Shown here in pieces: positions 1,784 through 22,464 of a stretch of DNA of 64,000 bases (position 1 is the first letter of the stretch; every line of letters begins with the position of its first letter). Position numbers and translations under genes: made by a program. Below the pieces are notes generated by a model. That model was not told where the DNA came from and made no database searches. It saw only the letters and a program-made list of their open reading frames with translations. Source of the DNA: a bacterium (GTDB taxonomy: Bacteria > Planctomycetota > Planctomycetia > Isosphaerales > Isosphaeraceae); NCBI GenBank assembly GCA_016125085.1, contig WGMM01000035.1, positions 1 through 64,000 on the forward strand, in the 5' to 3' direction.

Positions 1784-3058
1784 TCAACCCGTAAGCACGG
1801 GCAAAACGTAAGGACCTTTGGGTATGACGGCGACGGTCGCTTCGGGACCGTATTCGGCGATCGATTCACCCAGCGCCGTTTCGACGCTCGGAGCCGGCTC
1901 GACGAACAGTTTCGCGAGGACCTCGGCAGGCAGGCCGCCGCTGACGATCTTCACACGGGCTTTTCGGCGCACCTTGGCCAACTCTTCGAGCTGCCACTGG
2001 TCCATCACGAAATAGTCCTTGCCGAGAATCCTGTGCATGAACTGGTCGAGATCCGCGTTCTCATCGAATAGAGAACAGAATTCGGGGCTGCCGATGCCTT
2101 CCTTCAGGCCAGCCGCGATGATGATCGTGCCGCCTTGCTTGACGATCGGCAGGGCCCCCGTCAGCCCCTTCACAGCCTGATAGAAAGTCGTATCCAGCGG
2201 GTATCCGGCCGAACTCGTCACCACGATATCGACAGGCTCACGCACAGGAACCTTGACGATCTTTTCGACGAACCGGACACCTTCATGGAAGGCTTCGATC
2301 ATATCGCCAGCATGCACAGACGTGATCCTGCGGGCGGAATCGATGGAGACGTTCACGATGAAGTCGCAACCGGCCAGAAGGGCGATCTTCGTATTTTCCT
2401 CGTGCACCGGGTTACCTTCGAGGAACCCGCAATCGGCCTTGGGGTGCTCCAGCAAAGTCGGCCCGTGCCAGATTTTGACCGTTTCCAGAGCGGCAAGGCC
2501 AGGGCAGATCAGCTTGCGGCCGCCAGAATATCCGGCCATAAGATGCGGCTCGATCAGCCCCAGGGTAATTTTCAGGTCGGCCTGCACGTATCGTTTGTCG
2601 ATCCAGGCCGGAATGCCGCGATCGGTCGTGCCCAGATAAGCGTGTTCTTCGAGTCGAGTGCCGTAATGATCTTCGACCCGATACTTCGCGACGATTTCGT
2701 CGCCCAGCATTTCCCGCTTTTCGGCATCGGTCGAGGGCCTGTGCATGCCAGTGGCGACGAGGAAGAAAATTTCCTCGCGAGGAACACCGGCCGATTCGAG
2801 AATCGGCAGCATCGCCTCAGCGATGATCCGGTTCGGAACGGGCCTTGTAATGTCACAAATGACGATGCAGCAGGACGTTTTGCCCCTGGCCAGTTCCGAA
2901 AGAGGCGCCGTGCCGGTCGGCGCGGCGAGTTTGGCCGCGATCTCCGCGACCGGATCGGCGATCGGCGTAGTCGCCTGAATTTCGAGAGGACCGATCACGC
3001 GATCATGATCGATTCGGACGTCGAGTCCCTGACGGTCATAAGCCAGTTTGACTTGCAT
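1784..3058 (-). CDS. larA: LarA-family nickel-pincer racemase/epimerase (lactate racemase-like)
   Basis: A 424-residue protein with the DUF2088 and C-terminal LarA domains. LarA enzymes use a Ni-pincer nucleotide covalently bound to Lys to racemise lactate or other 2-hydroxyacids by hydride transfer. The key residues fall at the same spacing as in Lactobacillus plantarum LarA (H108, H174, K184, H200): here His106 (GMHRPS), His172 ([11 protein letters not shown]), Lys182 (GGRKLICPG) and His198 (IWHGP). This strongly suggests an active enzyme. The substrate is uncertain because the family has diverse specificities. The cofactor genes larB, larC and larE are not in this window. About 170 bp separate it from the upstream membrane-protein gene on the same strand. 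Confidence 0.88.
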
Positions 3059-3229
3059 GTGTATCGGTTCCGCCGCGGAGAACGGGAGAGAATCGGGCTG
3101 ATCACATGGATCGCACCCGTGAAAATGCTTGAAGGCCGGATCCAGCCGCCGGGCATGCCATCAGGCCTGAGACTCGAAGCGAGTCCCAAGCCTGCCGCAG
3201 GTTCATCCTATCAGGTCGGCATGAAAAAA

Positions 3230-4249
3230 TCAGTCCTGGTTCAAGCAGGCTCCGGCCGGTACGAGGATGATGTCGAATGGGTCAAGCGCAGCGTCGCAAT
3301 GCCCCTGGCGATTGGAGTAGATGTCCCTGTCCAGGCTGCGTATGCTTCGGCCCCTGATGAAAGCGGAATGGCCATCGGCGAAAATCACGTTCTGGCCGAA
3401 ACCACCGTGCCAGGGACTGTTCCCCTGTAAGAGCGGCGTTCTACCGTTCACCGGAGGCCGGTCGCCGGCCATCGGGATGACGGACTTCACGGATTCGATC
3501 ATCGAGCGATCGAGGTAGCGCACACCGACCTGACCTTTCAGCCCCGGATGCATGGCATAGACTTCGGCCATCATTGCGGAAAAGTCCCGCAGCAACTGCT
3601 CGGACTGCTGGTTGAGCTGATTCCAATGCGGCAGTTCGCGGGCCTGAAGGCGCGACGAACAACCGGGGCAGGTCAGGGGCACCGATTCAGGCAAATGCCC
3701 GGTGTGCCGCATCAGGGCCAGAGTCGCGCCGATCGGCAGACGACGGTTCTCGACCGTCGCATTCGGATAAACGTTGAAAGTCGTGGCATACTGTTCGACC
3801 CCCTGCCATATCTGGGTCAGATTCGATGAACAGGCCAGATTCGCGGCAGTGGCCTTGCCGTTCTTCAGTGCGGGCAGAGACCCCAGAAAAGCCGCACATA
3901 GAACGGAAGCCGCAACCGCGACGTCCGCGAGTCTCCAGCGAGGTTTCTCGACGAACGGCTCGCGGAATTCGAGCGTCATCGCCTTTTGTTCGCGAATCCG
4001 GTTCAGCGTTCTTTGCCTGAGATCGTCCGGCGGGCGGATCGGTTCGGAGCCGTGCGGTTCACAGCCGTCGTTGAGCAGCAACCCGATCTGCGAACGTGTA
4101 CGAGCGACCCTTTCCGGGCAGGGCCGAGGGTCGTTCGATCCGGCATCGGTCTCGACGAAATAGCGTTGCGGTCGAAAATCGATCAGCCCCAGAGCATGAC
4201 CGATGATGTCGTCAACCGCGTCGTCTTCGATGGAATCTTGGCTTTTCAT
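3230..4249 (-). CDS. single-TM protein with DUF1559-like (H-X9-DG) outer part; putative anti-sigma partner
   Basis: The chosen ATG (MKSQDSIEDD) lies 4 nt after the sigma-factor stop codon; a GTG 12 nt earlier (VHDAMKSQ) and a longer overlapping start are possible. The 339-residue product has a soluble N-terminal part of ~105 residues, one membrane span at about 107-126, and an outer domain. That domain resembles planctomycete DUF1559/prepilin-like proteins: CSSNLTQIWQGVEQYATTF with nearby YPNA at about 140-167, and an HGGFGQNVIFADG motif around 281-293 (H-X9-DG type). The tight coupling to an ECF sigma gene suggests an anti-sigma or membrane-anchored regulator, but no classic zinc-binding anti-sigma motif is visible. 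Gene prediction is firm; the role is inferred from position. Confidence 0.7.
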   Translation of the reverse strand: MKSQDSIEDDAVDDIIGHALGLIDFRPQRYFVETDAGSNDPRPCPERVARTRSQIGLLLNDGCEPHGSEPIRPPDDLRQRTLNRIREQKAMTLEFREPFVEKPRWRLADVAVAASVLCAAFLGSLPALKNGKATAANLACSSNLTQIWQGVEQYATTFNVYPNATVENRRLPIGATLALMRHTGHLPESVPLTCPGCSSRLQARELPHWNQLNQQSEQLLRDFSAMMAEVYAMHPGLKGQVGVRYLDRSMIESVKSVIPMAGDRPPVNGRTPLLQGNSPWHGGFGQNVIFADGHSAFIRGRSIRSLDRDIYSNRQGHCDAALDPFDIILVPAGACLNQD

Positions 4250-4253
4250 GGCG

Positions 4254-4856
4254 TCATGCACCCTCGTCGCCTTCGGAGATGTGGTCTCTGGCAGCCTTCT
4301 CGGCCATTTTCTGAAGGGCCGCATGAAGGCGAGACTTCACCGTTCCGACTGGCACATCGAGAATTTCTGCGATTTCCCGGTATTTGAGATCCTGATAGTA
4401 AGCAAGGATCAATGTCTGCCGCAGCGTCTCGGGCAGAGTATCGATGGCGCGGCGAACCCATTCGCGGCGTTCCTCGGTTTGCAACTGGGCCAATGGGCCT
4501 TCCGCCGTGCTCTCCAGAAGCGCTTCGAGCCCGTCGCGTGGCGTTTCGCCATCGTCGCTGCCGTTGGCCGAAAGGCTGCGGGCGGAATGACGCCCGACAC
4601 GACGCATCGTGTCGATCGCCTGATGGCTCGCGATGGCGTAGATCCAGGGCCGCACGGCGCGTCCCTCCTCATACGTATGCCGCTTCTGATGGATTTGCAG
4701 GAACGTGTCCTGAAACACGTCGTCGGCGAGCGTGGCATTGCCGAGATAGCGGACGAGATAACGATAGATCTCTTGCTGATAGCGTTCGATCAGGGCGTTG
4801 TAATCGGCCTCGTCCCCACGGTCCCGGTAGCGGGCCATCAGGGCTTCGTCCGACAT
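4254..4856 (-). CDS. ECF RNA polymerase sigma factor
   Basis: A 200-residue two-domain sigma-70 of extracytoplasmic-function type. Region 2 contains YRYLVRYLGNATLADDVFQD and the WIYAIASHQAIDTMRR recognition helix. Region 4 contains LPETLRQTLILAYYQ and the helix-turn-helix EIAEILDVPVGTVKSRLH. I chose the start MSDEALMARYRDRGDE, typical of this family. An upstream start (37 residues longer) would overlap the end of the DUF1501 gene and adds sequence unlike a sigma N-terminus. It is followed after 4 nt by the H-X9-DG membrane protein, its likely partner, and preceded on the same strand by the DUF1501/DUF1549 pair. Confidence 0.92.
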   Translation of the reverse strand: MSDEALMARYRDRGDEADYNALIERYQQEIYRYLVRYLGNATLADDVFQDTFLQIHQKRHTYEEGRAVRPWIYAIASHQAIDTMRRVGRHSARSLSANGSDDGETPRDGLEALLESTAEGPLAQLQTEERREWVRRAIDTLPETLRQTLILAYYQDLKYREIAEILDVPVGTVKSRLHAALQKMAEKAARDHISEGDEGA

Positions 4857-4959
4857 TTCGTCAGCTTCGACGACGGCCACGATGCCGTCTTTTCGTGTTA
4901 CGTCAGAGAGGGCCGAATGGTTCGCCACGTGTCGAAAGATTCCGTGAAAAATTGCACGG

Positions 4960-6435
4960 TCAGGCAAGAATGTCGCGAATCACGCGTCCGCCCACGTCCG
5001 TCAGGCGTTCGTCACGCCCCGAATGAAGCACCGTCAGACGCTTGTGGTCCAGGCCCATCAGGTGCAGAATCGTCGCATGAATGTCGTTGATGTGCGCACG
5101 CCCTTCGACGGCGTTCAGGCCGATCTCGTCGGTCGAGCCATAGATCTTCCCGCCCTGCACACCGCCGCCGGCGAACCACATGGTGAAGCCCGTCGCGTTG
5201 TGGTCCCGCCCGCGGCTTCCCTTCTGCGCGACCGGCGTTCGCCCGAATTCGCCGCCCCAGATCACCAGCGTATCGTCCAGCAGGCCTCTTCGCTTCAAGT
5301 CCGTCAGCAGTGCCGCAACGGGCTTGTCGGTCAAGCCGCACATTTTCTCGTGATTGGCGTTCACGTCATCGTGAGCGTCCCACTGCATCGCCACCGGCCC
5401 GCCACCCGAGTAAAGCTGCACGAATCGCACGCCCCGCTCCACAAGCCGCCGCGCCACGAGGCACCTGGCCCCGAATTCGCGTGTGCGGCTGTCGTTCAGA
5501 CCATAGAGCTCCCGCGTCTCTTCCGGCTCCCGAGTCAGGTCCACGGCCTCCGGTGCCTCGGCCTGCATGCGGTAAGCAAGCTCATAACTCGCGATCCGGG
5601 CGGAAAGTTCGGCATCGGCCGGATCAAGATTCGTTTCGTTGAGATCACGCAGCAAATCCAGCGTCTTTCGCTGGCGCTCACGGGTGAAATCAGGCGACGC
5701 CGACGCCAGATTCACGATCGGCTTCGGACCCGCCCGAAACAGCGTGCCCTGATAAGCCGCGGGCAGATACCCGCTGGACCAGCACGGCGCACCGCCCTCA
5801 GGCGTGCCCTCCGGCTGCGACATCACCACATAGGCGGGCAAGTTTTCCGATTCGGAACCGAGGCCGTAAGTTAACCAGCTACCGAGGCTCGGGTGGCCCA
5901 TCAGGATCCGGCCCGAGTTCATCTGATAGTGGGCCGGAGCATGCACGACACTGTCCACCGCGCAGCTGCGGATCAAGGCGATGTCGTCGGCCAGCGGGTG
6001 CATGTGGGGAACGAGGTCGGACATATCCATGCCCGACTCGCCGCACTTCGACCATTTGCGCGTCGACCCGAGGCATAGCGGGTCACTTTCCAGAAACTGA
6101 CTGTGGATCTTGCCGAAACTCTCAGGCAGCCGTTTGCCGTCGAGTTTGTCGAGCGCCGGCTTGGGGTCGAACAGCTCCATCTGGCTCGGGCCGCCAACCA
6201 TGAACAGAAAAATGCAGCGCTTCGCGGTGGCCGGGAAGTGCCCCGGCCGGGCGGCCAGCGGATTGGCCAGGGCCGATCCGTCCGCAAGGCTGCGTCCTTC
6301 AAGGCCGAGGAGATGCTGTGCGGCGAGCCAGCCGAAGCCGCCTCCGATCGAGCGGAGCCAGTGCCGGCGCGAGGCCATTTCGGGTTGAGCCATTTCTGCG
6401 AACGGCCCTGGGCATGCGGATGGCTGACGGTTCAT
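4960..6435 (-). CDS. DUF1501 family secreted protein (Tat signal)
   Basis: A 491-residue protein of the DUF1501 family, abundant in planctomycetes and usually paired with DUF1549/DUF1553 proteins; the biochemical function is not established, and the fold is thought to relate to alkaline phosphatase/sulfatase. A twin-arginine-type signal ([13 protein letters not shown]) lies at about residues 20-33. Family motifs include [46 protein letters not shown] and [17 protein letters not shown] prefer the internal ATG ([10 protein letters not shown]) over one 23 residues upstream because it puts the signal peptide near the N-terminus. It lies 142 nt downstream of the DUF1549/1553 gene and upstream of the sigma factor. 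Confidence 0.92.
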
Positions 6436-6577
6436 GGTCGACTCTGCTCGCCTTCGAAGTTGGGGCGTCGTGAATCCGTGTGCGTAATTATACCGTTCCG
6501 GCACGGCCGGGACATCCCCGCGCCGAATCCGTCAACGATCCAGGATTTTTCGCAACTCTCGGCCGGCAAGGCCGCAC

Positions 6578-8938
6578 TCAGGGGACGTAGAGGAACTCGT
6601 TGGAATTGATCAGCGTCAGGGCATAATCGGCCCATGCCGATTCGTCAGGCCGATCGCCCAGAAATTCCAGAACACGTGCCAGTTCCTTCTCGCCAGGATC
6701 ACGGATCAGCACGCGCCGGAACAGTGATCTGGCACGTTCGGCCACGTTCGGTTCGCCAGCGGTCGTTGCCGCCAACTTCCGGGCACTTTCCTGCGCGAAA
6801 GCACTGTTGAGCAGCACACGTGCCTGAGGGGCATGCGTACTCACAGGGCGAACAGGGCAGGAACTTTGCGTATCCGGCGCGTCGAAGGCGGCATAAAGCG
6901 CATAGTGCACATTCCGCTTGCGCAGCAGATAAAGCGACCGCCTGTCGAACTCCGCCGGGTTCAGATCCACAGGCCAGAGGTCGACGACCTCGGCTTCCGT
7001 AAAGATCAGCTCCTTGATCTCGTCCTCGATCGGCACCCGCACCCCAGGGCCGCCCATTTTCGGATTGAGCCGGCCGGAAACGGTCAGGACCGCGTCGCGC
7101 AGCCCCTCAGCCTCCATCCTCCGGCGGTTCATGCGATAGAAAGTCTCGTTGTCCGGATCGTCCCGATCCTGCTCCGCAATGCGGAAATCCGACCTCATCC
7201 GGTACGTGCCGCTGGTCACCATCAGCCGGTGGATCGGCTTGAGCTTCCACCCGCCGGCAACCAGTTCGGAGGCAAGCCAGTCGAGCAATTCCGGATGGCT
7301 CGGTGGTTCGCCACGCGTGCCGAAGTCGGATGGCGTCGCCACGATTCCGCGGCCGAAATGGTGTTGCCACAAGCGGTTGACGATCACGCGCGCCACCAGC
7401 GGATTCGCCGGATCGGTCATCCAGCGTACGAGTGACGCCCGACGGCCGGATCCTGCGGTTTTCTTCGAGGCTTCGTCCGAAGTCGATGATTCCGAGTTCG
7501 CCGGAGATTCTGCCCAGCCTGCGCCTGAGGCCACCGAAAGAATCACCCCCGGCGGACGAGGCGCCACCAGCGGCCCCGGATGCTTCCATTCGCCTCGTTT
7601 GTAGACGTAGGTGTCGTCGGGCTTCGGCTTGGCTTCCTTGATCGCGAACGCCCTGGCGGGCGGCTGCGGCCTGAGACGCTCCAGCTCATAGACCTCACGC
7701 TTGATTTTTTCCCGCTCGGCATGCACGGGCGGATCGGCTGCCACGGCCTCGGCCACGAGTTCCCAAGTCACGTTCAGGGCGGTGTTGATACCCTCCGCCA
7801 ACCGCTGTTCCTCAGGCGTGCGCTGATCTTTGGGCTTGGCCATGATGGACCGTTCCTTCGCCGTCAGACCATTCTCTTTCTCTTTGCGAATACGCTCCCG
7901 ATAGGGCTTCTCCAGCTCAGCCTGGCGCTTCTTCAGCGGTGCGATCTTCGCATCGATCGCCTTGTTGGCCGCCGCGATCTTCGCCTTTTCTTCATCGCTG
8001 GCGATGTCTTCCTCGACCAGTTCCGTGCCAGCCCAGAACGATTGAAGCCGGTAGAAATCAGTCGTCGGGATCGGGTCGAATTTATGGTCGTGGCATCGCG
8101 CGCAGCCCATCGTCAGCCCCATCACGACCGACCCGACCGTGCCGGTGATGGCCGTCATATCGTTCTGACGCTTCTCCTTTGGGGAGATATTGCCGCCGAC
8201 GACTTCCCTGGGCCCGCTGCGGGCAAAGCCGGTCGCGATCAGGGCCGAAGTATCGCCGGGGCGAATTTCGTCGCCAGCAAGCTGGAGGGCGATGAAGTGA
8301 TCGTAAGGCATATCGCCGTTGAGGGCGTCCACAACCCAGTCCCGATAACGCCAGGCGTCCGGCCGGTCGGCATCGAGTTCGAAACCGTTCGAATCGGCAT
8401 AATGGGCAAGATCCAGCCAGTGTTGAGCCCAGCGCACACCATAAGCCGGCGAAGCCAGCAGGCGATCGACCAGCTTTTCGAAGGCGTCGGGCGAACTGTC
8501 TTCGAGAAACTCCCGCGCCTGCTCCGGAGTCGGCGGCAAACCGGTCAGATCGAACGTGACCCGCCGCAGCAGCTCGACTTTCGACGCCTCCGGAGCATGC
8601 CGGAAGCCAAGGTCTTCCAGAGACTTCAGAACGAACCGGTCGATCGGATTCCGCACCGCCTTCGATTCCCTGACTTCAGGCGGTTCAGGCCGCTCGACGG
8701 GTCGAAACGCCCAGTGATCGAGTTGATCTTCGCGGAACTTCTCGGGTGGTGCCGGTTGCGGAGGCGGCGTGCTCGCGGCAGGCTCTGCAGCCATCGCAAA
8801 TCGAGCCGCCAGCAAGCTGACGAACGCCACGCACGCAAGAAGCGGCACGCAGGATCGGCACGAACGGCCAGATTTCGAAGACCCTGAGGATCGAAAAATG
8901 CCGGATGGAGATATTTTGCGAGAAGAATGGCTGCCCAT
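6578..8938 (-). CDS. DUF1549/DUF1553 (PSCyt2/PSD1) secreted protein
   Basis: A 786-residue protein with an N-terminal hydrophobic signal (CVPLLACVAFVSLLAARFA, cleavage likely after AMA). DUF1549 starts near NPIDRFVLKSLEDLGF and includes LTGLPPTPEQAREFL and RWAQHWLDLAHYADSNG. A CARCHDHKFDPI motif (a CxxCH haem-like signature) follows. A central Lys/Glu-rich, probably helical stretch precedes DUF1553, which carries RWMTDPANPLVARVIVNRLW and the QHHFGRGIVATPSDFG motif. No N-terminal PSCyt1 cytochrome domain is present. The start MGSHSSRKI is preferred because the longer frame adds 62 low-complexity residues before the signal. It is probably co-transcribed with the downstream DUF1501 gene; such pairs are a planctomycete hallmark of unknown function. 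Confidence 0.92.
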   Translation of the reverse strand: MGSHSSRKISPSGIFRSSGSSKSGRSCRSCVPLLACVAFVSLLAARFAMAAEPAASTPPPQPAPPEKFREDQLDHWAFRPVERPEPPEVRESKAVRNPIDRFVLKSLEDLGFRHAPEASKVELLRRVTFDLTGLPPTPEQAREFLEDSSPDAFEKLVDRLLASPAYGVRWAQHWLDLAHYADSNGFELDADRPDAWRYRDWVVDALNGDMPYDHFIALQLAGDEIRPGDTSALIATGFARSGPREVVGGNISPKEKRQNDMTAITGTVGSVVMGLTMGCARCHDHKFDPIPTTDFYRLQSFWAGTELVEEDIASDEEKAKIAAANKAIDAKIAPLKKRQAELEKPYRERIRKEKENGLTAKERSIMAKPKDQRTPEEQRLAEGINTALNVTWELVAEAVAADPPVHAEREKIKREVYELERLRPQPPARAFAIKEAKPKPDDTYVYKRGEWKHPGPLVAPRPPGVILSVASGAGWAESPANSESSTSDEASKKTAGSGRRASLVRWMTDPANPLVARVIVNRLWQHHFGRGIVATPSDFGTRGEPPSHPELLDWLASELVAGGWKLKPIHRLMVTSGTYRMRSDFRIAEQDRDDPDNETFYRMNRRRMEAEGLRDAVLTVSGRLNPKMGGPGVRVPIEDEIKELIFTEAEVVDLWPVDLNPAEFDRRSLYLLRKRNVHYALYAAFDAPDTQSSCPVRPVSTHAPQARVLLNSAFAQESARKLAATTAGEPNVAERARSLFRRVLIRDPGEKELARVLEFLGDRPDESAWADYALTLINSNEFLYVP

Positions 8939-9298
8939 GGAAGCGTCCTGATAGTCGAGCGAACGGATTCGGAGGGCGGACGGTCGGGGACGACAATCCA
9001 GCGGTGAGAGCGGCGGGGAGGGGCCGTACTCGGGAAGGCCTGAGCGGTCTAAACGAATTCTACCCCGCGGAAGCGGGTGAGGGCAAGACAGGGAAATTCG
9101 GGCAGGACGGGCCGTATCGATCATTACGGCCAGAAAATTGACGAATCGGAAAACATCGCACTGGCCGGCCTGATTCCGATTCGATACAATTCATAGAACC
9201 CGCCGAAATTTCGGTTGGACGAACCGGGCGATTTCCGAATTCCCGATGGTTCGCCGCCAGCCGATCCCGCCTGAACTACAGAGTCCGGAGGCCGCGAC
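8939..9298. other. divergent intergenic region between DUF1549/1553 and DUF1501 genes
   Basis: About 360 bases hold no convincing gene. They must contain promoters for both divergent genes. A TACAAT hexamer at 9185-9190 could be a -10 element for the plus-strand gene, but I see no matching -35. A GGAGG ribosome-binding site lies just before 9299. Confidence 0.5.
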
Positions 9299-10912: not shown

Positions 10913-13084
10913 ATGCGTTTGAGCATTCAATCGAAGATGATCGTCGCCCTTCTGCTCTTGAGCGTAGCTGCGGCGTCGATCACGGGATATCTCGGTTATC
11001 GCAGCGGTCAGCAGGCGCTTACGGATAGCATTTTCCAGCGATTGACGGCCGTCCGCGCCGCGAAATCCAGCCAGGTCCGTAACTATCTGAAGTTCGTCCG
11101 AGGTCAGGTTCAGTCCTACAGTGAAGGCCTGCTTGTCATCAAGGCCTCGAAAGAAATGACGGAGGCCTTCGAAGAACTGAGGTCGAAAAAGCTGACCCCC
11201 GAACAGGAAAAAGAACTTAGACAATTCTACGAGAAAGTCTATCTGCCGGAGCTGATGAAGCACGTCGACTCGAAACCCCAGATCGAATCGGTCTATCCCG
11301 ATACGGATATCGCCAGGTATCTTCAATATCATTACCTGGTCAAAAACCCGAACTCCCTTGATAGCAAGGACTTGCTGAACGACGCCGGTGACGGCTCGAA
11401 ATTCTCCGAACTCCATGCCAGGTACCACAATGTGGTGAACAACTTTCGTAAGACTTTCGGCTACGAGGACATCATGCTCGTCGAGCCGGAGAATCTCGAA
11501 GTCGTTTATTCCACCGCCAAGGAGATCGATTTCGGTACCAGTTACGCGAATGGCCCGTTTTCCAGGACCGGTCTGGCCGAAGCTATGGAAACGCTTCAGC
11601 GTGAGCAGGATAAGGAAGTCGTCGCGATGGTCGATTACGAACCTTACCGGCCATACTTCGGCTTGCCGTCGGCGTTCATGGCCAGCCCGATTTTCGACGG
11701 ATCGACCCTGGTCGGCATTCTCGTCGCCCAGTTTCCGATCAAGCGAATCAACGACATCGTGTCGGGTGAAGGCAAGTGGGAAGAAGACGGGCTCGGTAAA
11801 TCAGGCGAAGTTTACCTGGTGGGCGAAGACCATTACATGCGGAACGAAAGCCGCCACTTCACGGAAGACCCGAAAAGTTACGTCAAACGCCTGGCGGCTA
11901 ACGGATTCAGCAGGGAACAGGTCGAAAAGACGGAGCGATTCCAGACTTCGATCCTGACGGTCAAACTGACGTCCGATGTGATCGACAATATTTTCCGGGG
12001 TGAATCGGGAATCGGTATCATGGACGATTATCTGGGCGTACAAGTGCTCGCGAGTTACGCACCTCTGGACTTCGAAGGCCTGCGCTGGGGTATCGTGGCG
12101 AAAGTGCCTACGGAAGAAGCCTTCGCACCGGTCCGCAAGTTCACGACGGACCTGTTGTCGATCCTCGCCGCGATCGGCCTCGGCGCAAGCTTGATCGCCG
12201 CACTGATCGGTGGAACGATCGCTCGCCCCATCCGTAAACTCACGCACACCGCCGCGGCATTGGCTCGTGGCCATTACGACGCCCGAGTGCATATACGATC
12301 CCACGACGAATTCGCGGAATTGGGCCGAACGTTCAACCGGATGGCTTCGGAGATCGAGAACCAGCAGAACCGGATCGAAGAAAAGGTACGGGAAAACGAA
12401 CGCCTGCTCGAAAGCATGCTGCCGGCGAAAGTCGCGGCCAGGTTGAGAAGCGGCCCGCCGGACCAGCTCAGCGATTCGCACGCCGACGTTTCGATCGTCT
12501 TCGGTGCGGTGCATGGCTTCGACGTTTTTTCCGAAGAGCTGGCACCCGCGAAGGCGCTCGAACTGCTCAATCAACTGATCGTCGCGTTCGACGAAGCCGC
12601 CGAAACCCACGGGGTCGAGAAGCTCAAGTCGATCGGGGCGAGTTATCTGGCGGTGTGCGGTCTGAGCGTCACCCGCTTCGACCATTCACGCAGGGCCGTT
12701 GCGTTCGCGCTCGAAATGGAGCGGATCATCCGCAAATTCAACGCCGATAACGAGGCCGATCTGGTCCTCAACGTCGGGATTCACCGCGGGCCCGTCACGG
12801 GCGGGATCATCGGCCGGCACAAGTTCATCTATGACTTGTGGGGGCGTACGATCGACATCGCCCGCAGCCTCGGCGAAACCCACGGCAAAGGTATTATCCG
12901 AATCTCGAAGGACGTCTACGAACGGGTGGCCGACAATTTCGAGTGCGAAATGGTCCGGCTGACTCCGGCCAAGGGCGACTACGTCTACCTTGTCGAATCG
13001 TCGGATGCCATCGGGCCGAACCACGAAAGGCCGGCACAGGATTCGAAGCGTCCCGCCGGCAAGATCGAAACGACGAGCGAATAA
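10913..13084 (+). CDS. receptor 1: Cache-HAMP-class III pseudocyclase
   Basis: A 723-residue membrane receptor. TM1 is at about 9-31, followed by an extracytoplasmic Cache-like sensor of ~370 residues (motifs RYLQYHYLVKNPN, GYEDIMLVEP, GEVYLVGEDHYMRNESR), TM2 at about 412-433, HAMP at ~434-486, a coiled S-helix ending ERLLESMLPAKVAARL, and a class III cyclase-like domain at ~520-693. Against mycobacterial Rv1625c both metal Asp are Ala (A532, A576), and the transition-state Asn and Arg are Asp648 and Ser652. The substrate-specifying Lys572 and Asp641 are kept, which is unique in this array. The dimerisation arm GGIIGRHKFIYDLWG is intact. The channel gene starts 11 nt after this stop behind a strong ribosome-binding site. 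It probably binds rather than makes a nucleotide; unproven. Confidence 0.9.
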   Translation: MRLSIQSKMIVALLLLSVAAASITGYLGYRSGQQALTDSIFQRLTAVRAAKSSQVRNYLKFVRGQVQSYSEGLLVIKASKEMTEAFEELRSKKLTPEQEKELRQFYEKVYLPELMKHVDSKPQIESVYPDTDIARYLQYHYLVKNPNSLDSKDLLNDAGDGSKFSELHARYHNVVNNFRKTFGYEDIMLVEPENLEVVYSTAKEIDFGTSYANGPFSRTGLAEAMETLQREQDKEVVAMVDYEPYRPYFGLPSAFMASPIFDGSTLVGILVAQFPIKRINDIVSGEGKWEEDGLGKSGEVYLVGEDHYMRNESRHFTEDPKSYVKRLAANGFSREQVEKTERFQTSILTVKLTSDVIDNIFRGESGIGIMDDYLGVQVLASYAPLDFEGLRWGIVAKVPTEEAFAPVRKFTTDLLSILAAIGLGASLIAALIGGTIARPIRKLTHTAAALARGHYDARVHIRSHDEFAELGRTFNRMASEIENQQNRIEEKVRENERLLESMLPAKVAARLRSGPPDQLSDSHADVSIVFGAVHGFDVFSEELAPAKALELLNQLIVAFDEAAETHGVEKLKSIGASYLAVCGLSVTRFDHSRRAVAFALEMERIIRKFNADNEADLVLNVGIHRGPVTGGIIGRHKFIYDLWGRTIDIARSLGETHGKGIIRISKDVYERVADNFECEMVRLTPAKGDYVYLVESSDAIGPNHERPAQDSKRPAGKIETTSE

Positions 13085-13095
13085 GGAGAGCATCG

Positions 13096-14613
13096 GTGTT
13101 CGATTCTCCGCTCGAACTGAACCGGCTTTACTGGACCATCAGTCTGGTCATCGCCGTTCCCCTGCTGACTGTGATTCTGGTCGAGCTTGAGCAACTCCAG
13201 CGCCGCCAGTCGTCCAAGTACCGCTCAGTCTTCCGCTATCTGCGTGTCACGACGATACCACTCCTGGCCGCCTGGCTGATCCTCGTCAAAATCATGGGGA
13301 CTGCCGTCGACGATCGACTGGCGAAGATCGTCGCCACCCTGGCTGATGTTTCGGGAATCGTCGTCGGGCTGGCTCTGGTCAACGCGATCCTGTTTTCGAA
13401 CGTCTCCGAAGATTCCTGGCAGGCTCGGACCCCCAAGCTGCTGGTGGACATCGTCCGGTCCATCCTCGTGATCATCGGGGCCGCGATCGTCCTCTCTCTC
13501 GTCTGGGGTGTCGATCTCGGACAACTCGCGGCGGCCCTGGGAATCGGGTCGATCGTCATCGGTCTGGCGATCGCCGAGCCTCTCGGCAACGTGTTCGCAG
13601 GGCTCATGCTGCTGGTCGAACGACCGGTCGCCGTCGGCGACTGGATCAAGATCGACGACAGCGTCGGACAGGTCATCGAGATCAACTGGCGTGCCATTCA
13701 CCTGCGAACCTACTATGGAGAGCTGATCGTCGTCCCCAACGCAATCCTGGCCAAGGAATCGTTCAACAATTATTCGAGGCCGACGAAACTCCATACCGAA
13801 CCGATCAAGCTGGGATTCTCGTACGACGATCCGCCGAACAAAGTCCGGGCCATGCTGCTGGGGCTCCTCGAACAAACGCCTGGGATCCAGCACGAGCCGC
13901 CACCGTCCGTTCGTGTGATCGATTACGGCGACTTTTCCGTCGATTACGAAGTCATCTTTTTCGTGGATGACTACAAGAAAATCTTCGACACGCGCGACGC
14001 CTTCATGACGAAAGTCTGGTACGCAGCGAGACGGGAAGGTATCACCATTCCATTCCCGACCGCTCTGGAATACGGCGGCGAAGAGAAAGAAACGATACTC
14101 GACGCCAGGGCGAACCCCCCGATCGCCGAACATCTCGAAAATCTGGCGATCCTGGCCGGGCTCAGCGACGGTCAGCGTGCCAAACTCGAAACCGGCGCCA
14201 CATGGCAATTCTTCGCACGGAACGAGATCGTCGTCGAACAGGGCACGAATCTGGAAGGGCTGTACCTCATCACCCGAGGCAGGATTCGGGCATCCCGCAA
14301 AAACCTCGACGGTACTTTCACGGACATCTTCGAGGCAGGCCCCGGTGAAGTTTTCGGCGAATCGATCGCGAACGCCAACAGGGCCAGCGATCTCCGAATC
14401 TCGGCCCTGGAAGATCTGGACTGCATCGTGATCCGGCCGAACGAACTGCAGTCCGTGCTGATGTCCTGTTCGCGATTCGCCCGCGAGATTTCCCAGCTTA
14501 CGGAATTGCGTAACTCTGGCCTGGGTGTTCGATCGGCATCGAGTCATTCCGAACTCTTCGGCTTTCCGAGAACCGACGTTCCCCCAAAAATGCCGGCCAG
14601 ATCGAAGCCTTGA
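13096..14613 (+). CDS. MscS-type channel with C-terminal cyclic-nucleotide-binding domain (bCNG-like)
   Basis: The GTG start at 13096 is fixed by AAGGAGAG (13083-13090), which overlaps the end of receptor 1; an in-frame extension upstream overlaps that gene and is rejected. The product has 505 residues. About five membrane spans occupy residues 9-175; the last is the MscS pore helix (LGIGSIVIGLAIAEPLGNVF). The MscS beta domain follows (VGDWIKIDDSVGQVIEINWR, VVPNAILAKESFNNYS). A cNMP-binding domain spans ~345-465. Its phosphate cassette is recognisable: GEVFGES (Glu422) then NRAS (Arg429). The architecture matches bacterial cyclic-nucleotide-gated channels of the MscS superfamily. Coupling to receptor 1 suggests a ligand-sensing, nucleotide-regulated ion pathway in the inner membrane; this link is inferred. 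Confidence 0.92.
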   Translation: MFDSPLELNRLYWTISLVIAVPLLTVILVELEQLQRRQSSKYRSVFRYLRVTTIPLLAAWLILVKIMGTAVDDRLAKIVATLADVSGIVVGLALVNAILFSNVSEDSWQARTPKLLVDIVRSILVIIGAAIVLSLVWGVDLGQLAAALGIGSIVIGLAIAEPLGNVFAGLMLLVERPVAVGDWIKIDDSVGQVIEINWRAIHLRTYYGELIVVPNAILAKESFNNYSRPTKLHTEPIKLGFSYDDPPNKVRAMLLGLLEQTPGIQHEPPPSVRVIDYGDFSVDYEVIFFVDDYKKIFDTRDAFMTKVWYAARREGITIPFPTALEYGGEEKETILDARANPPIAEHLENLAILAGLSDGQRAKLETGATWQFFARNEIVVEQGTNLEGLYLITRGRIRASRKNLDGTFTDIFEAGPGEVFGESIANANRASDLRISALEDLDCIVIRPNELQSVLMSCSRFAREISQLTELRNSGLGVRSASSHSELFGFPRTDVPPKMPARSKP

Positions 14614-15639: not shown

Positions 15640-17754
15640 ATGCGATTGTCCGGCAAACTGACTCTGACTCTCGTCACTTTGAGCGTCGCAACGGCTGCCG
15701 TGAGCGGTGCGATCATATATGATCGGGCCAGGCTCGTTCTCGAACGCGCGGCTCTGGAAAAAATGCAGGCCATTCGTCACGCCCGCAGCGAATTCGTCGT
15801 GACCTATTTTGACTTTCTTCGTTCGCATAGCCGGAATTTCGCGAAAAATCTGATGGTTCTGGATGCGACGACGGCGTTCGTCGAAGGCTTCGACGAACTG
15901 CGTGAGAAGAAGTTGTCGCCTGAGGAAGACGCAAAGCTGAAACAGCTTTACGAGACGCAATTCCTGCCGTTCGCGGATCGCTTTTCCGATTCTCCGACAC
16001 CGATGGAACTCGTTTATCCGACAAGCGATGCGGCCAGATTCCTCCACGTGCGCTACATCGCCGAGAACCCACACCCCCTGAATTCGAAACACAACCTTCA
16101 TCAGGTCGAAGACGGTTCGAAATACGCCAGGGCCCATACGAAATTTCAGGCCCTTTTCGATGACTTCCGCCAGGAACTCGGCTACATCGACCTGCTGCTG
16201 GTCGATCCCCGGAGCGAGGAAATCGTTTACACGGTGCGTAAGGGTATGGATCTCGGCGCGAATCTGGCCGAAGGCCCGGCCGCCGATTCGAAGCTGGCCG
16301 TAGCGGTCCGCAAAATCCGGGACAAAAGAGAACCCGGGGCTGTCGAATTCGTCGATTTCGAACGGTATGTCGCTTCCTGGTGGCGGCCTTCGATGTTCGT
16401 CGTCACAGGCGTGTTCCGCGACCAGGAACTCGCGGGCATCCTGATTCTTCAGATTTCCGACGAAGTACTGAGCCAGATCGTCGGCGGCAGCCAGGAACGG
16501 GAAGATTCGGAGCTCGGGCAGACTGGCGAAGTTTATCTCATCGGGACAGATGGAAGGATGCGTTCGGAGAGCCGGTTGTTCAGGAAGGACCGGGCGACAT
16601 TCCTGGAACGTCTGGAGATCTCCGGCGACGATGCACCGATGCAGAAACGGATCGAACGTGCGGGTACGACGATCCTTGCGGAAAGGCGACTCCCGGAGAA
16701 TTTCGGGAACGTTTTTGCAACGTCCAGCGCGACGACCCGGGTAAAGGGCAGATCCGGCAACGATATTCTGACCAGTTTCGAACGGCTCGACCTTGGCGGG
16801 CTTCCCTGGGGCATCGTCGCCCAGATGGACCTGGACGAAGCGACGGCATGGTCCTCCGAATTTCGGTCTATCGCCAATTCTTCGCTTCTGCTTTCGTGTC
16901 TCTTGGCAAGTGTCGTGGCCTGTTTCGCGGCCCGGGCATTGACTCGGCCTCTGCAGCAGGTCAATCTCGCGGCAAGGGCATTCGCGAACGGATTTTACTC
17001 GGTGCGTGTGCCCGTTCGAACCGAAGACGAAATTGGCGACCTCGCCACCACATTCAACGAAATGGCCGCCGAAATCGAGTCGAAAACGACCCGGCTGAAA
17101 TCCGTGATCGAAGAGTCGGACCGTTTGCTCGAACACATGATGCCACCGCTGGTTCTGGCTCGATTCCACCGCCGGGAAGTGGCCGGCGATGCGACTCCGT
17201 TCGGGTCGGACATTACGCTGGCATTCGTCGAAATCATGGAACTTGACAGGCTGTTCGACTTCTTCGAGACGCGCATCGCCTTCGATCGATTCGATGAAAT
17301 CAATGCCTCGTTCGACGAAGTCGCGACCCGGTCGGGCATGGAAAAGCTCGGCCATGTCGGGACAGGGCATATGTTCGCATGCGGCCTGAGCATGACGCGG
17401 TTCGACCACACCACTCGCGTTCTGAACTTTGCCCAGGAACTCCAGTGGATCGTGGATTCGTTCAACGCCGAACACAATACGTCCGTCTTTCTGAACATCG
17501 GTGTGCATCGAGGCCCGATTTCCACCGGCCGACTCGGCCGGATGCACTTCGTGAACGAGTTGTGGAAGCGAACGATCGAACTGGCCAAGGAAATTGACCA
17601 GTCCGTTCGCAAGTCGAGTGTCCGAGTCTCGAACGAAGCCTTTCAGCGTGTCGACAACAACGGCGAATTCGCGTTCGCGGAAAACGAAATCGGATCTACC
17701 CGGCAAGCATGGACTCTCCTGAGGTTCTCGGGCAAACGTCTCGCAGACGCATAA
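15640..17754 (+). CDS. receptor 2: Cache-HAMP-class III pseudocyclase
   Basis: A 704-residue paralogue of receptor 1 with the same plan: TM1 near residues 4-28, a Cache-like outer domain (RFLHVRYIAENPH, GYIDLLLVDP, GEVYLIGTDGRMRSESR), TM2 near 410-435, HAMP, an S-helix ending DRLLEHMMPPLVLARF, and a cyclase-like domain from ~520. Catalytic positions are degenerate: metal Asp1 is Glu531, substrate Lys is Gly571, metal Asp2 is Thr575, and the Asn/Arg pair is Glu/Glu (RTIELAKEI). Structural motifs RFDHTTR, GVHRGPISTG and ELW remain. The ribosome-binding site is weak (GGGATGAAGC before the ATG). It is first of five receptors spaced 210-345 nt apart, so probably independently transcribed. Confidence 0.88.
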   Translation: MRLSGKLTLTLVTLSVATAAVSGAIIYDRARLVLERAALEKMQAIRHARSEFVVTYFDFLRSHSRNFAKNLMVLDATTAFVEGFDELREKKLSPEEDAKLKQLYETQFLPFADRFSDSPTPMELVYPTSDAARFLHVRYIAENPHPLNSKHNLHQVEDGSKYARAHTKFQALFDDFRQELGYIDLLLVDPRSEEIVYTVRKGMDLGANLAEGPAADSKLAVAVRKIRDKREPGAVEFVDFERYVASWWRPSMFVVTGVFRDQELAGILILQISDEVLSQIVGGSQEREDSELGQTGEVYLIGTDGRMRSESRLFRKDRATFLERLEISGDDAPMQKRIERAGTTILAERRLPENFGNVFATSSATTRVKGRSGNDILTSFERLDLGGLPWGIVAQMDLDEATAWSSEFRSIANSSLLLSCLLASVVACFAARALTRPLQQVNLAARAFANGFYSVRVPVRTEDEIGDLATTFNEMAAEIESKTTRLKSVIEESDRLLEHMMPPLVLARFHRREVAGDATPFGSDITLAFVEIMELDRLFDFFETRIAFDRFDEINASFDEVATRSGMEKLGHVGTGHMFACGLSMTRFDHTTRVLNFAQELQWIVDSFNAEHNTSVFLNIGVHRGPISTGRLGRMHFVNELWKRTIELAKEIDQSVRKSSVRVSNEAFQRVDNNGEFAFAENEIGSTRQAWTLLRFSGKRLADA

Positions 17755-18025: not shown

Positions 18026-20119
18026 ATGATGACGAGCATTCGTAACAAATTGATCCTGGCCATGTTAGGCATCAGCCTGATTTCTGTCGTACTCATCGGC
18101 ATCATGGGATACAAAAAGGGGTCGAGCGAACTGGTAAGGTTGGGCAGGGAACGGCTCACCTCGATCCGAATCGCCAAACAGGCTCACGTGGAGAAATCGC
18201 TCGAGGAACTGCACAGCCGCACGTCATATCACGCGGACAGCTTTACGATCACGGAGAGCATGGTCAAGTTCGTCGCGGCATTCGAAGAACTTAAGGCGAA
18301 AACGATCACGGACCCGGAGTTCTCCGAAACGAAGGCCTGGTACGAAAATGAATTCGTTCCGGAATTCGAAGAGCATGAACAGAAACTGCCGCAGCTCGAT
18401 CCTCTTTTGCCTGCAAGCACTGCCGCCCGATACCTCCAATTCCGTTACATCGTCAAGAATCCGCATCCGCTTCATGAGAAACGCAAACTCGTTTCATGCG
18501 AAGACGGAACCACATACGACGAAGTCCACAAAGCCTATCAGGAAAAGTACGACAGCTTCCTCAAGTCCTTCGACTACGAAGATCTTCTGTTCTTTCACCC
18601 CGTGACGAGCGAGGTCGTTTACTCGACTCTCAAGCAGATCGAGTTGGGCAGTTCGTTCGAAACCGGACCGTTCGCCCGAACCAAACTCGCCCAGGCCGTT
18701 CGTGCCGTGAATCAGGCGCCGGTCAAAGGCCAGTCACGGATGATCGATTTCGAATGGTACGTCCCGGCGTTCGGACACCCGATCGCGTTCATGATCTGCC
18801 CGGTCTATAAAAATGACAAGTTTCAGGGCACCATGGCGATCGCGATCGCGACCGACAATTTCAACAAAATTCTCTTCGCCGACAATCAGGACAAGTTTCC
18901 CGGACTGGAAAAAACAGGCGATATCATCCTGTTCGGTGATGACGGCTACATGCGCAGCGACAGCCGGTTTCTCATGGAAGACTCGAGTCAATACGCGGCC
19001 CGGCTTCGATCCTCCGGCATCAGCGAAGAGATCGTAAGCAAGATGCTCAATTATGACTCCACGATCATGATTCTCCCCGTTCGGCCAGAAAATGCGAAGC
19101 TCACCTTCGAGCGGAAATCAGGAGTCGGCGAATTCGAGAATCTCTTCGGTGTCAAGATTCTGGCCAGTTACTCGGTAATGAACGTGAAGGACATGAACTG
19201 GGCCATCGTTGCGACCCTGGGGATGGACGAGATCTACCAGGGCGTGAACGAATTCTTGAACATCGCGCTGATCGGCGGCAGTATCGTGGTGCTGCTGAGC
19301 GGCATTCTGGCAGCCATGGCGGGCAGGGCGATCGCAGCCCCCGCGCGCCAGCTCACGCAAGCCGCCAAGGCGTTTTCGAACGGTTTCATGAGTGTCCGCG
19401 TTCACGTGAACTCGCATGACGAAATGGCCGAACTCGCAAAAACGTTCAACGCCATGGCAGAGGAAATCGAAAACCGAACGAGAAACTACAAGGCCAAAGC
19501 TGAGGAAAGCCGTCGGCTTCTGGAAAACATGCTGCCGATGCCGGTTCTCGCCAGGTTCCGTACGAACGAATCCAGGAACGACGATACGCCGTATCAGACG
19601 GAAGCCACCTTGGCTTTCGTGGAAATCGAAGGCCTGGACCGGCTCGTTTCCGATTTTGGCGCAAAGAAAGCCGATTCGCTGGTCAAGGAACTCGTGACCC
19701 GGTTCGACGCCGCAGCCGAAAAGCTCCACGTCGAAAAGCTGAGTTCCACCGGGTCTGGATACTTGGTCGCATGCGGTTTGACGATCTCCCGTTTCGATCA
19801 TACTCCATGCATTCTCAGATTCGCGCAGGAGCTTCTCTGGCAGGTCGCGACTTTCAATGCGGAGAATATCACCCGGGTCTATCTCTCCATTGGTGTGCAT
19901 CGCGGGGGAATCGGCACCGGCAAGATTGGCCGCCATGCATTCATTCATGAACTCTGGGGCCGTACGATCGACCTGGCGAAGGAAATCAGCGAAATCGAAG
20001 GCAAATCGGCGATCCGGGTCTCCCGGGAAGTCGTCGACAGAGTCGGCGATCACACCCGCTTCGAATTCGTCCGCGACGAGATCGGTACGGAAGAGCCGGC
20101 ATGGACTCTGATCCATTGA
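18026..20119 (+). CDS. receptor 3: Cache-HAMP-class III pseudocyclase
   Basis: A 697-residue paralogue: TM1 near residues 8-28, a Cache-like outer domain (RYLQFRYIVKNPH, DYEDLLFFHP, GDIILFGDDGYMRSDSR), TM2 near 410-433 (LIGGSIVVLLSGILAAMAG), HAMP, an S-helix ending RRLLENMLPMPVLARF, and a cyclase-like domain. Metal Asp1 is Glu533, substrate Lys is Ser573, metal Asp2 is Ser577, the transition-state Asn is Asp and the Arg is Glu (GRTIDLAKEI). GVHRGGIGTG and ELWGRT are conserved. An ATG directly preceding the start (MMTSIRNK) makes the exact first Met uncertain by one residue. The outer domain differs most from its neighbours, as expected for ligand diversification. Confidence 0.88.
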   Translation: MMTSIRNKLILAMLGISLISVVLIGIMGYKKGSSELVRLGRERLTSIRIAKQAHVEKSLEELHSRTSYHADSFTITESMVKFVAAFEELKAKTITDPEFSETKAWYENEFVPEFEEHEQKLPQLDPLLPASTAARYLQFRYIVKNPHPLHEKRKLVSCEDGTTYDEVHKAYQEKYDSFLKSFDYEDLLFFHPVTSEVVYSTLKQIELGSSFETGPFARTKLAQAVRAVNQAPVKGQSRMIDFEWYVPAFGHPIAFMICPVYKNDKFQGTMAIAIATDNFNKILFADNQDKFPGLEKTGDIILFGDDGYMRSDSRFLMEDSSQYAARLRSSGISEEIVSKMLNYDSTIMILPVRPENAKLTFERKSGVGEFENLFGVKILASYSVMNVKDMNWAIVATLGMDEIYQGVNEFLNIALIGGSIVVLLSGILAAMAGRAIAAPARQLTQAAKAFSNGFMSVRVHVNSHDEMAELAKTFNAMAEEIENRTRNYKAKAEESRRLLENMLPMPVLARFRTNESRNDDTPYQTEATLAFVEIEGLDRLVSDFGAKKADSLVKELVTRFDAAAEKLHVEKLSSTGSGYLVACGLTISRFDHTPCILRFAQELLWQVATFNAENITRVYLSIGVHRGGIGTGKIGRHAFIHELWGRTIDLAKEISEIEGKSAIRVSREVVDRVGDHTRFEFVRDEIGTEEPAWTLIH

Positions 20120-20364: not shown

Positions 20365-22464
20365 TTGAAGCTGAGCCTGCGGAGAAAAACGGTAATCGCA
20401 CTTCTCGCGATCAGTTTTGCCTCTTCGACCGCCACCGGCCTGCTGGGCATTTACCGGAGTCACGTGGTGCTGACTCAGGCGGCATTGGACAGGATGTCGG
20501 CTTTGCGCGTCGCGAAACAGGGCGAAGTCAGCCGTTACCTTGAGCATGTCGCGGACCACGTTCGCTTGATGAGCAGGACCCCTGCGACGATCCAGGCTTC
20601 AGAGAAATTCGTAAAGGCGTTCGAGGCATTGAATGATAAAGCTGAGACGCCGGAAGAATCGGAACGAATCCGTAAATACTATCAGGATCAATTTCTACTC
20701 ACTCTGAACGAGCACGGCGATACAGGCACTACTATCGACTCGATTTTGCCGACTTCGCGGGCGGCTCGTTATCTTCAGGACCGTTTCATCATTCGCAACC
20801 CGAATTCGATCTATGAAAAATCGAAACTCCTCGATATGGGCGACGGATCGGAATATTCGAAAGTACACGCCGAATTTCATCCGAATTATCTCGAATCGGC
20901 ACTGGAACTGGACTACTACGACCTCATGATTTTCCATCCTGAGACACGGGAACTGGTCTACACGATAAAAAAAGAGATCGACCTGGGCAGTTCGTACCGA
21001 AATGGTCCGTTCGCTTCGACCAAACTCGCGCAAGCCGTGAATTCGATCGATTCTTCGACGGCGCGAGATACCGTCCTGTTCGTGGACTTCGAATTCTACA
21101 CGCCAAGTTATGGCCACCCGGCCATGTTTCTGGTGAGTCCGATTCGCCGGGGCGATCGACTGACCGGCATCTTCGCTCTGCAGTTTTCCCCGGACCGGCT
21201 CAATCGCATTTTCGCAGGCGGAAACCCGAGCGAAACACTGGGCCTGGGTCAAACGGGCGAATCGTTCCTGGTCGGCAAGGATGGCTTCATGCGCAGCGAT
21301 TCTCGCCATTTGATCGAAAATCAGCAAGCTTACTTCGACTCTTTACGCAAGTCAGGTCATGACGAAAAAGAAATCCAGCGCATGCGGAATTTCGGATCGA
21401 CAATTCTGACGGTCCACCGCAACCCGGAATCGATCCGCCAGATCTTTGATCTCGGAACGAACACGACAATCATGGCGAACCTGTTGAATGCACCTGTAAT
21501 CACGAGCTATGCGCCGATTCAGATCGGCGGGCTGGACTGGGCCATCGTCGCTCAAATCGACGAGAGCGAAGCTCTTGAACCTGAACGCAAGTTCATCATA
21601 GAAGCGGGTGTTGCGCTTGCTGCCATTTTGTGCCTGAGTGGCCTGGCCGCTCTCGTGGCAGGCGCGGCACTATCACGGCCTGTTCTTCGATTGACTCAGG
21701 CCGTCCGGGCGTTCGTGAACGGGTTCCGGGACGTGCGAGTCTCGATCGACTCCGGCGACGAGGTGGCCGAATTGGCCCAAGCTTTCAACACGATGGCTTC
21801 GGAGATCGGAAACAACGAAAACCGCCTGAAGCAGCAGGTCGAGAAGAACCGCCGGCTGCTGGAAAACTTTCTTCCGGCGACCGTCCTGGCGCGACTCAGG
21901 CGTAACCTCGACGATGACGCATCGACATATCGCGATGCGACACTGGCTTTCGTCGAGGTCGAGGGGCTCGATCATCTTTTCGAATACTTCGATACGAACA
22001 AGGCCAACGACCTGCTGCAGGCTCTTGCAGCCTCGTTCGATGAAGTCGCTGCCAGACATGGTGTCGAAAAGCTCTCTTCCAGTGGTGGCGGTTATCTGGC
22101 TGCGTGCGGATTGAAAGATCCTATATTCGACCACACGCCAAGAATTCTGGCGTTCTCGCAAGAACTGGAGAACCTGATCGCCATTTTCAACGCTCAGAAC
22201 TTCACCCGTCTTCAATTGTCGATCGGCATCCACAGGGGCCCCATACATACCGGCCGCATCGGCCGAAACGAATTCGTGAATAACCTGTGGGCGAGGACGG
22301 TCAGCCTCGCGACCGAAATCCAGCCGACCCTCGGGCGATCGGCCATCCGTGTCTCCGACGAGGTCAAATCGAGGGTTATGGGACATCCGGAATTCCAATT
22401 CGAAAGTGATACCGGTGTCAGAAATTCCGAGGCCTGGACTTTACGGCCTGGCCATCCGTCCTGA
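20365..22464 (+). CDS. receptor 4: Cache-HAMP-class III pseudocyclase (TTG start)
   Basis: A 699-residue paralogue. It starts with TTG at 20365; GGAGAGAG a few bases upstream and alignment of the N-terminus (KLSLRRKTVIALLAISFAS, TM1) with the other receptors support this. The outer Cache-like domain has RYLQDRFIIRNPN, YYDLMIFHP and GESFLVGKDGFMRSDSR. TM2, HAMP and an S-helix ending RRLLENFLPATVLARL follow. Cyclase positions: Glu531 for metal Asp1, Ser571 for substrate Lys, Gly575 for metal Asp2, Ser for the transition-state Asn and Glu for the Arg (ARTVSLATEI). It keeps GIHRGPIHTG. A perfect 8-bp hairpin without T-run (22485-22506) follows the stop. Confidence 0.88.
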   Translation: MKLSLRRKTVIALLAISFASSTATGLLGIYRSHVVLTQAALDRMSALRVAKQGEVSRYLEHVADHVRLMSRTPATIQASEKFVKAFEALNDKAETPEESERIRKYYQDQFLLTLNEHGDTGTTIDSILPTSRAARYLQDRFIIRNPNSIYEKSKLLDMGDGSEYSKVHAEFHPNYLESALELDYYDLMIFHPETRELVYTIKKEIDLGSSYRNGPFASTKLAQAVNSIDSSTARDTVLFVDFEFYTPSYGHPAMFLVSPIRRGDRLTGIFALQFSPDRLNRIFAGGNPSETLGLGQTGESFLVGKDGFMRSDSRHLIENQQAYFDSLRKSGHDEKEIQRMRNFGSTILTVHRNPESIRQIFDLGTNTTIMANLLNAPVITSYAPIQIGGLDWAIVAQIDESEALEPERKFIIEAGVALAAILCLSGLAALVAGAALSRPVLRLTQAVRAFVNGFRDVRVSIDSGDEVAELAQAFNTMASEIGNNENRLKQQVEKNRRLLENFLPATVLARLRRNLDDDASTYRDATLAFVEVEGLDHLFEYFDTNKANDLLQALAASFDEVAARHGVEKLSSSGGGYLAACGLKDPIFDHTPRILAFSQELENLIAIFNAQNFTRLQLSIGIHRGPIHTGRIGRNEFVNNLWARTVSLATEIQPTLGRSAIRVSDEVKSRVMGHPEFQFESDTGVRNSEAWTLRPGHPS

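Follow-up and report, generated by a model that had tools for sequence, protein, structure and literature searches.

In a planctomycete genome, the gene of a Cache-HAMP receptor with a cyclase-derived cytoplasmic domain (Receptor 1, R1) and the gene of an MscS-superfamily channel with a cNMP-binding domain (CNBD) form a pair that is conserved among relatives; R1 has lost catalytic residues and the channel has lost the canonical arginine of its CNBD. These observations suggest a sensor that acts on the channel with no need for cAMP, the usual messenger, and we lean towards a reading in which the two genes constitute one unit and the pseudocyclase receptor gates the channel by direct contact. 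More tentatively, the pair may be a two-protein bacterial ligand-operated channel, composed of a Cache receptor, a cyclase acting as a mechanical relay, and a CNBD that would not bind cyclic nucleotides. Such a module would be conserved in Cyanobacteriota, Planctomycetota, Verrucomicrobiota and in isolated cases in Pseudomonadota.

The receptor-channel locus and its conservation

The window, a stretch of 64,000 nucleotides, belongs to a genome of 6.09 Mb that is 93.5% complete (G000). The features of the locus relevant to its layout and to the sensor are as follows:

10913..13084, + strand: R1 (723 aa), consisting of TM1, predicted periplasmic dCache, TM2, HAMP, signalling helix, and class III cyclase-like domain
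11003..12142, + strand: predicted periplasmic double-Cache sensor region, approximately residues 31-410 (Pfam dCache_1, AlphaFold2)
12203..12358, + strand: HAMP domain, residues 431-482 (Pfam PF00672, 57 bits)
13083..13090, + strand: Shine-Dalgarno-like AAGGAGAG, read directly, overlapping the R1 stop codon
13096..14613, + strand: channel (505 aa, GTG start) with MscS beta and C-terminal domains and a C-terminal CNBD

The R1 stop codon TAA occupies 13082-13084 and is separated from the channel GTG by a gap of 11 nt. Both this distance and the overlap of the ribosome-binding site with the last codon of the receptor had been described in the initial annotation, and both are borne out, the codon in question being the stop. 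The assignment of the downstream gene to the MscS superfamily, with a cNMP-binding domain, also holds: PF00924 (MscS beta, 73 bits), PF21082 (MscS C-terminal, 44 bits) and the CNBD match all exceed their Pfam cut-offs. The predicted channel model comprises four N-terminal helices and a pore helix, followed by the MscS vestibule and the CNBD, and its best fold matches are MscS structures. The MscS beta and C-terminal domains expected of a bCNG channel are thus found by Pfam and fold search alike, and the C-terminal CNBD fold is present in the channel and in 22/22 relatives.

The N-terminal helix of R1 is a signal anchor, and the HAMP domain follows TM2. The sensor region matches dCache_1 with 24.5 bits, which is under the Pfam cut-off of 45, and AlphaFold2 models most of residues 30-410 with pLDDT above 90; the relative L288 passes the cut-off with 55 bits. 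The top 50 fold matches were mostly cyclases, and a plain Cache structure was absent among those 50. The amino-acid binding motif of dCache amino-acid sensors contains RxWY; this was found in 0/58 receptors, and the presence of an amino-acid-sensing dCache motif was rejected.

To assess conservation, whole-genome searches covered the class (398 genomes), the phylum (392), Cyanobacteriota (292), and the phyla to which a Verrucomicrobia match (289) and a Chromatiaceae match (349) belong. GTDB contigs were scanned too, and in all the surroundings of 123 MscS-CNBD channels were read. Conservation of the adjacency, chosen beforehand as the point on which the module could fail, turned out to be strong: a Cache-HAMP-cyclase-like gene lies immediately upstream in 56/58 assessable members of one channel clade, with hosts in Planctomycetota, Cyanobacteriota, Verrucomicrobiota and a few Pseudomonadota. 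Three further members begin at a contig end and are outside the 58; the two unpaired ones are L277, which has no receptor, and L295, which has only the last 83 residues of one. Outside the clade, a cyclase gene stands immediately upstream of only one channel in 62 (L126), and this gene lacks Cache; the pairing within the clade thus exceeds chance. The paired channels form one clade, whose nearest unpaired relatives, L232 and then L233-L235, keep the cassette arginine discussed below. In the four nearest orthologues (G002 and G003 of the same genus, G012 and G013 of the same family) the receptor is directly upstream in every case. The spacing has a median of about 20 nt and mostly falls between overlap and about 90 nt, large negative values being a product of mechanical ORF extension. 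Strong paired-type matches occur in about 21/398 genomes of the class and 17/292 Cyanobacteriota; in the draws from the phyla of the Verrucomicrobia and Chromatiaceae matches they occur in the seed genome only.

The search for adjacent or fused genes proposed at the outset thus yielded adjacent genes, and no receptor-channel fusion was found among the loci read. One candidate, L103, was rejected: there the N-terminus of a receptor is joined to a frameshifted channel, and the locus looks decayed. No conserved third gene was found beside the pair; the clusters obtained were mostly opposite-strand shadow frames.

Distances in the receptor and channel trees are strongly correlated (r=0.89, 51 pairs; maximum of 999 permutations 0.18), although shared species history inflates this value, and a within-genome test was therefore made. 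In five genomes carrying 2-3 pairs, 11/11 receptors match the tree position of their own channel better than that of the neighbouring one (for example, 0.97 vs 0.47), and for 9/11 the receptor and channel share their nearest relative. One pair from Chromatiaceae and one from Verrucomicrobia fall inside the planctomycete pairs in the receptor tree as well as in the channel tree, which is the placement to be expected of two genes moving together. The pair has thus been conserved and duplicated jointly, and it seems to have crossed between phyla by joint transfer, so that the proposal of a sensory-channel module is well supported.

Conserved pairing is also compatible with co-regulation alone. 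The receptor and channel could be independent members of one stress response, e.g. osmotic, sharing an operon, with membrane tension as the only gating stimulus of the channel. In favour of this, the MscS core is intact, and spacing of the kind seen in operons demonstrates no more than co-expression. However, a third gene is not conserved beside the pair, partners from co-duplicated pairs stay matched within a genome, which shared regulation alone does not need, and the receptor and channel domains both changed character in the paired clade. We consider this explanation quite unlikely.

Catalytic residues of the receptor and the phosphate-binding cassette of the channel

The features of the two cytoplasmic domains are listed below, with catalytic positions of R1 taken from its alignment to AC8/AC5/AC9:

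12473..12961, + strand: cyclase-like domain, residues 521-683, catalytically degenerate (Pfam PF00211)
12506..12508, + strand: first metal aspartate position, Ala532
12626..12628, + strand: Lys572, adenine-specifying position, kept
12638..12640, + strand: second metal aspartate position, Ala576
12833..12835, + strand: Asp641, second adenine-specifying position, kept
14122..14511, + strand: CNBD-like domain, approximately residues 343-472 (PF00027 cNMP_binding, 44 bits; PKA regulatory subunit matches)
14353..14406, + strand: altered phosphate-binding cassette FGESIANANRASDLRISA, with Ser431 (14386-14388) at the canonical Arg position

The Guanylate_cyc match of R1 (PF00211) reaches 120 bits, and the closest solved sequences to its cyclase-like domain are mammalian adenylyl cyclases. 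The six catalytic positions read A, K, A, D, D, S: both metal aspartates are replaced, the adenine-specifying Lys/Asp pair is retained, and the transition-state Asn/Arg are Asp648 and Ser652. The term pseudocyclase was thus right for the window. R1 is indeed the sole carrier of Lys572 among the six copies in the window (the others have G, S, S, N and S), and it keeps Asp641, which R6 keeps too. Judging from sequence, R1 may form a cyclase-derived dimer that does not synthesise cAMP in the window, with binding of a purine nucleotide possible.

Among the 56 paired receptors, all six catalytic residues are present in two (L288 and L290, both cyanobacterial) and both metal aspartates in eight. The second metal aspartate is kept in 15/56, all of them cyanobacterial, and lost in 41/56; the cyanobacterial survey thus led us to reject its loss in every paired receptor. 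In 44/56, Asp641 is retained alongside Lys or Arg at position 572. The receptor tree shows two changes of the second metal aspartate, so that cyclase loss is lineage-specific, and cAMP production may persist in the cyanobacterial receptors with kept residues. Near channels with a canonical cassette, both metal aspartates are intact in 9/9 scored cyclases, L126 included.

The phosphate-binding cassette of the channel had been reported as recognisable by Glu422 and Arg429. Glu422 is confirmed, and Arg429 lies two residues away from the correct register: an ungapped phmmer match to PKA RI aligns 'fgesiananrasdl' of the channel with 'fgeialllnrpraa', pairing Arg429 with the arginine two places before the functional one (position taken from PMC10959531) and Ser431 with the functional one itself. 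The alignment of 123 channels gives the same register, the cassette reading FGEMSLLTGEPRSAT in unpaired channels, FGEMALFSGEPSPVS in cyanobacterial paired channels and FGESIANANRASDLR in the window, and Arg429 was accordingly rejected as the cassette arginine. A bCNG cassette with both Glu and Arg is therefore not what this channel has. The canonical arginine is lost in 55/56 receptor-paired channels and kept in 58/61 unpaired relatives (Fisher p about 2e-28); the counts are not independent, since what is essentially a single loss on the clade stem accounts for them. L120 is the sole paired channel with Arg at the canonical position; the channels of L288 and L290 also lack it. Glu422 itself is lost in 18/58 channels of the paired clade. 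An acidic residue often follows the lost arginine. Loss of the arginine is not proof that the CNBD has lost cyclic nucleotide binding.

In the genome of the window, each of the eight class III cyclase homologues that were found has degenerate metal positions, and in G013 (99% complete) and G065 (100%) the only class III homologues are paired, degenerate ones. Class I adenylate cyclase was searched for in 7 genomes and not found. With R1 degenerate, the cassette arginine lost and no intact class III cyclase among the homologues found, cAMP is unlikely to be the messenger here. In a classical arrangement, the receptor, alone or with another cyclase half, would make cAMP that opens the channel via the CNBD. 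The six intact residues of L288 and L290, the intact REC-cyclase of L126 next to a canonical MscS-CNBD channel, and the resemblance of R1 to the C2 half of mammalian cyclase, which needs a C1 partner, all speak for it. R1, however, has neither metal aspartate nor the Asn and Arg, the searches of its genome, at 93.5% completeness, yielded no class III or class I cyclase that qualifies as potentially active, and even the channels paired with L288 and L290 are without the CNBD arginine. We regard such an arrangement as very improbable. The initial annotation had allowed for relay by nucleotide handling; since its cassette claim was wrong and the phosphate-binding cassette is not intact, that branch is unlikely for cyclic nucleotides.

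The remodelled CNBD might instead bind another small molecule, such as a nucleoside, ATP/AMP, c-di-AMP or a metabolite, while the pseudocyclase binds ATP, so that the pair would read nucleotide status plus an external signal. CNBDs can switch ligand, as exemplified by the trypanosomatid PKA regulatory subunit (PKAR), in which the phosphate-binding Arg is lost and nucleosides are bound (PMC10959531); the CNBD fold is conserved, and most paired receptors keep the adenine-specifying positions, as counted above. Against this, the Glu that binds ribose and defines the nucleoside type in PKAR, at the position of PKA RI Ala202 (PMC10959531), is missing in all paired-clade channels: the corresponding position 424 is A, L, S, G, T or I in 58/58, and a trypanosomatid nucleoside-type cassette was rejected on this ground. 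The loss of Glu422 in part of the clade, the frequent acidic residue after the lost arginine, and the window channel model, which contains no helix in the cassette (low confidence), also count against another ligand, which we consider unlikely.

In close pairs, dN/dS of the receptor cyclase-like and CNBD regions is 0-0.3, i.e. both are under purifying selection, and rapid decay is not the explanation of the altered sites.

Proposed gating by direct contact

From these results, direct contact appears to be the better branch of the model than nucleotide handling, and we infer the following course of events. The dCache domain of R1 would sense an external ligand, and the signal would pass through TM2, HAMP and the signalling helix to a cyclase-derived dimer. 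This dimer would touch the MscS-type channel, the output of the unit, and so hand on the signal; the CNBD-derived domain is the probable site of contact, and membrane helices may meet as well. The contact would shift channel gating, with a cyclase-derived relay acting on a CNBD-derived docking domain. The features that are kept, namely HAMP, signalling helix, cyclase fold, adenine pocket and CNBD fold, are those that a conformational relay needs, and the relay may bind ATP as well.

Residues specific to the paired clade (E30, R50, P55, N96, W108, W137, F241) concentrate in the predicted membrane helices and the MscS vestibule. E30 is found in 100% of paired and 0% of unpaired channels, W137 in 100% and 12%, and F241 in 100% and 2%, respectively. 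These positions may mark a contact zone, but the N-terminal alignment to the unpaired rows is loose, and we treat them as no more than a lead. Two points speak against contact: the symmetry mismatch between a dimeric receptor and a heptameric MscS channel, and the possibility that the genes are simply co-expressed.

On becoming tied to the receptor, the channel would have ceased to read a cyclic nucleotide, and catalysis would later have become dispensable in many lineages. Loss of the arginine is near-universal even where the cyclase is intact, and cyclase loss is lineage-specific, which fits a channel that changed first. If direct contact is correct, a former messenger pathway has collapsed into contact between proteins, and bacteria own a receptor-operated channel that needs no second messenger. 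It would also explain conserved 'adenylate cyclase' genes unable to make cAMP, and would assign a role that can be tested to a group of MscS-CNBD channels for which annotation would suggest gating by cNMP. A natural series from an enzyme-messenger-sensor pathway to a contact pathway would then run from L126 (intact cyclase, canonical CNBD) through some cyanobacteria (intact or near-intact cyclase, altered CNBD) to Planctomycetota and others, in which both are altered.

Comparison with known systems

No description of the receptor-channel pair was found in open-access papers, subscription papers being outside the scope of the search, and the bCNG channels were met in open-access full text as reference-list mentions only (PMC4560390).

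Within this survey, L126 is one of the closest counterparts of the window pair: in both, a cyclase gene precedes an MscS-CNBD channel, at 27 nt in L126. Unlike the window pair, L126 encodes a REC-cyclase without Cache, its catalytic set (DKDDNR) and cassette Arg are intact, and its channel sits on a branch of the channel tree separate from the paired clade. Trypanosomatid PKAR shares with the window channel the replacement of the CNBD phosphate-binding Arg, whereas paired-clade channels have no Glu at the Ala202 position.

Like R1, the C2 half of mammalian adenylyl cyclase keeps the adenine-pocket Lys and Asp and lacks the metal aspartates, and the motif EKxKxIGxxYxAxxGL is common to both. In the R1 family, by contrast, the Arg (and in the window the Asn) is lost as well and no C1 partner was identified; the likeness may be convergent. 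Cache-HAMP class III adenylyl cyclases have the same succession of dCache-like sensor, HAMP, signalling helix and class III fold as R1, but R1 and most of its relatives have lost the metal aspartates and transition-state residues and are tied to a channel gene.

The bCNG channels, MscS-superfamily channels with a C-terminal CNBD (Caldwell 2010 and Malcolm 2012, as given in the reference list of PMC4560390), resemble the window channel in the order of MscS pore, beta and C-terminal domains followed by the CNBD. The window channel differs from them in the replaced canonical cassette Arg, the near-constant upstream receptor, and the clade-specific residues of the membrane helices and vestibule. 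The channel is thus bCNG-like yet departs from that group in the cassette, and the receptor is Cache-HAMP-cyclase-like yet departs from active cyclases in its catalytic residues.

Degenerate receptor copies

Five further Cache-HAMP-cyclase-like receptor genes (R2-R6) form a tandem array in the window, without channel genes, and the cyclase-like part is degenerate in all five.

15640-17754, R2
18026-20119, R3
20365-22464, R4
22678-24774, R5
25118-27280, R6

Two degenerate genes of the same kind lie on contig C44 of this genome, and together with R2-R6 they make up a group separate from the channel-paired receptors.

C44, about 203300, L047
C44, about 218600, L041

A DUF1501-like gene adjoins L047, as one does receptor 1. 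Across the 13 other genomes searched, no unpaired degenerate copies of the R2-R6 kind were scored.

Apparently disrupted receptors and divergent channels

Two receptor loci appear disrupted.

6033-7494, L103, in a Leptolyngbya MAG
2624-5913, L278, a split receptor gene

At L103, receptor residues 1-125 are joined to a frameshifted channel, reflecting either a decayed gene or an assembly error. The L278 receptor is interrupted by about 1.1 kb within its cyclase part, possibly through an insertion.

The draw around a Chromatiaceae genome included two unpaired channels, L337 and L339, which carry Glu in place of the canonical cassette Arg and form a separate long branch.

Cyclase genes near canonical channels

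At L126, an MscS-CNBD channel with a canonical cassette lies 27 nt downstream of a response-regulator-cyclase gene whose catalytic set is intact, apparently an independent pair of the messenger type.

5953-9129, minus strand, L126 response-regulator-cyclase gene

Since intact class III cyclase genes also occur within a few kb of canonical MscS-CNBD channels at L131, L132, L139, L145, L239, L240 and L248, cyclase linkage of bCNG-type channels may be a wider pattern.
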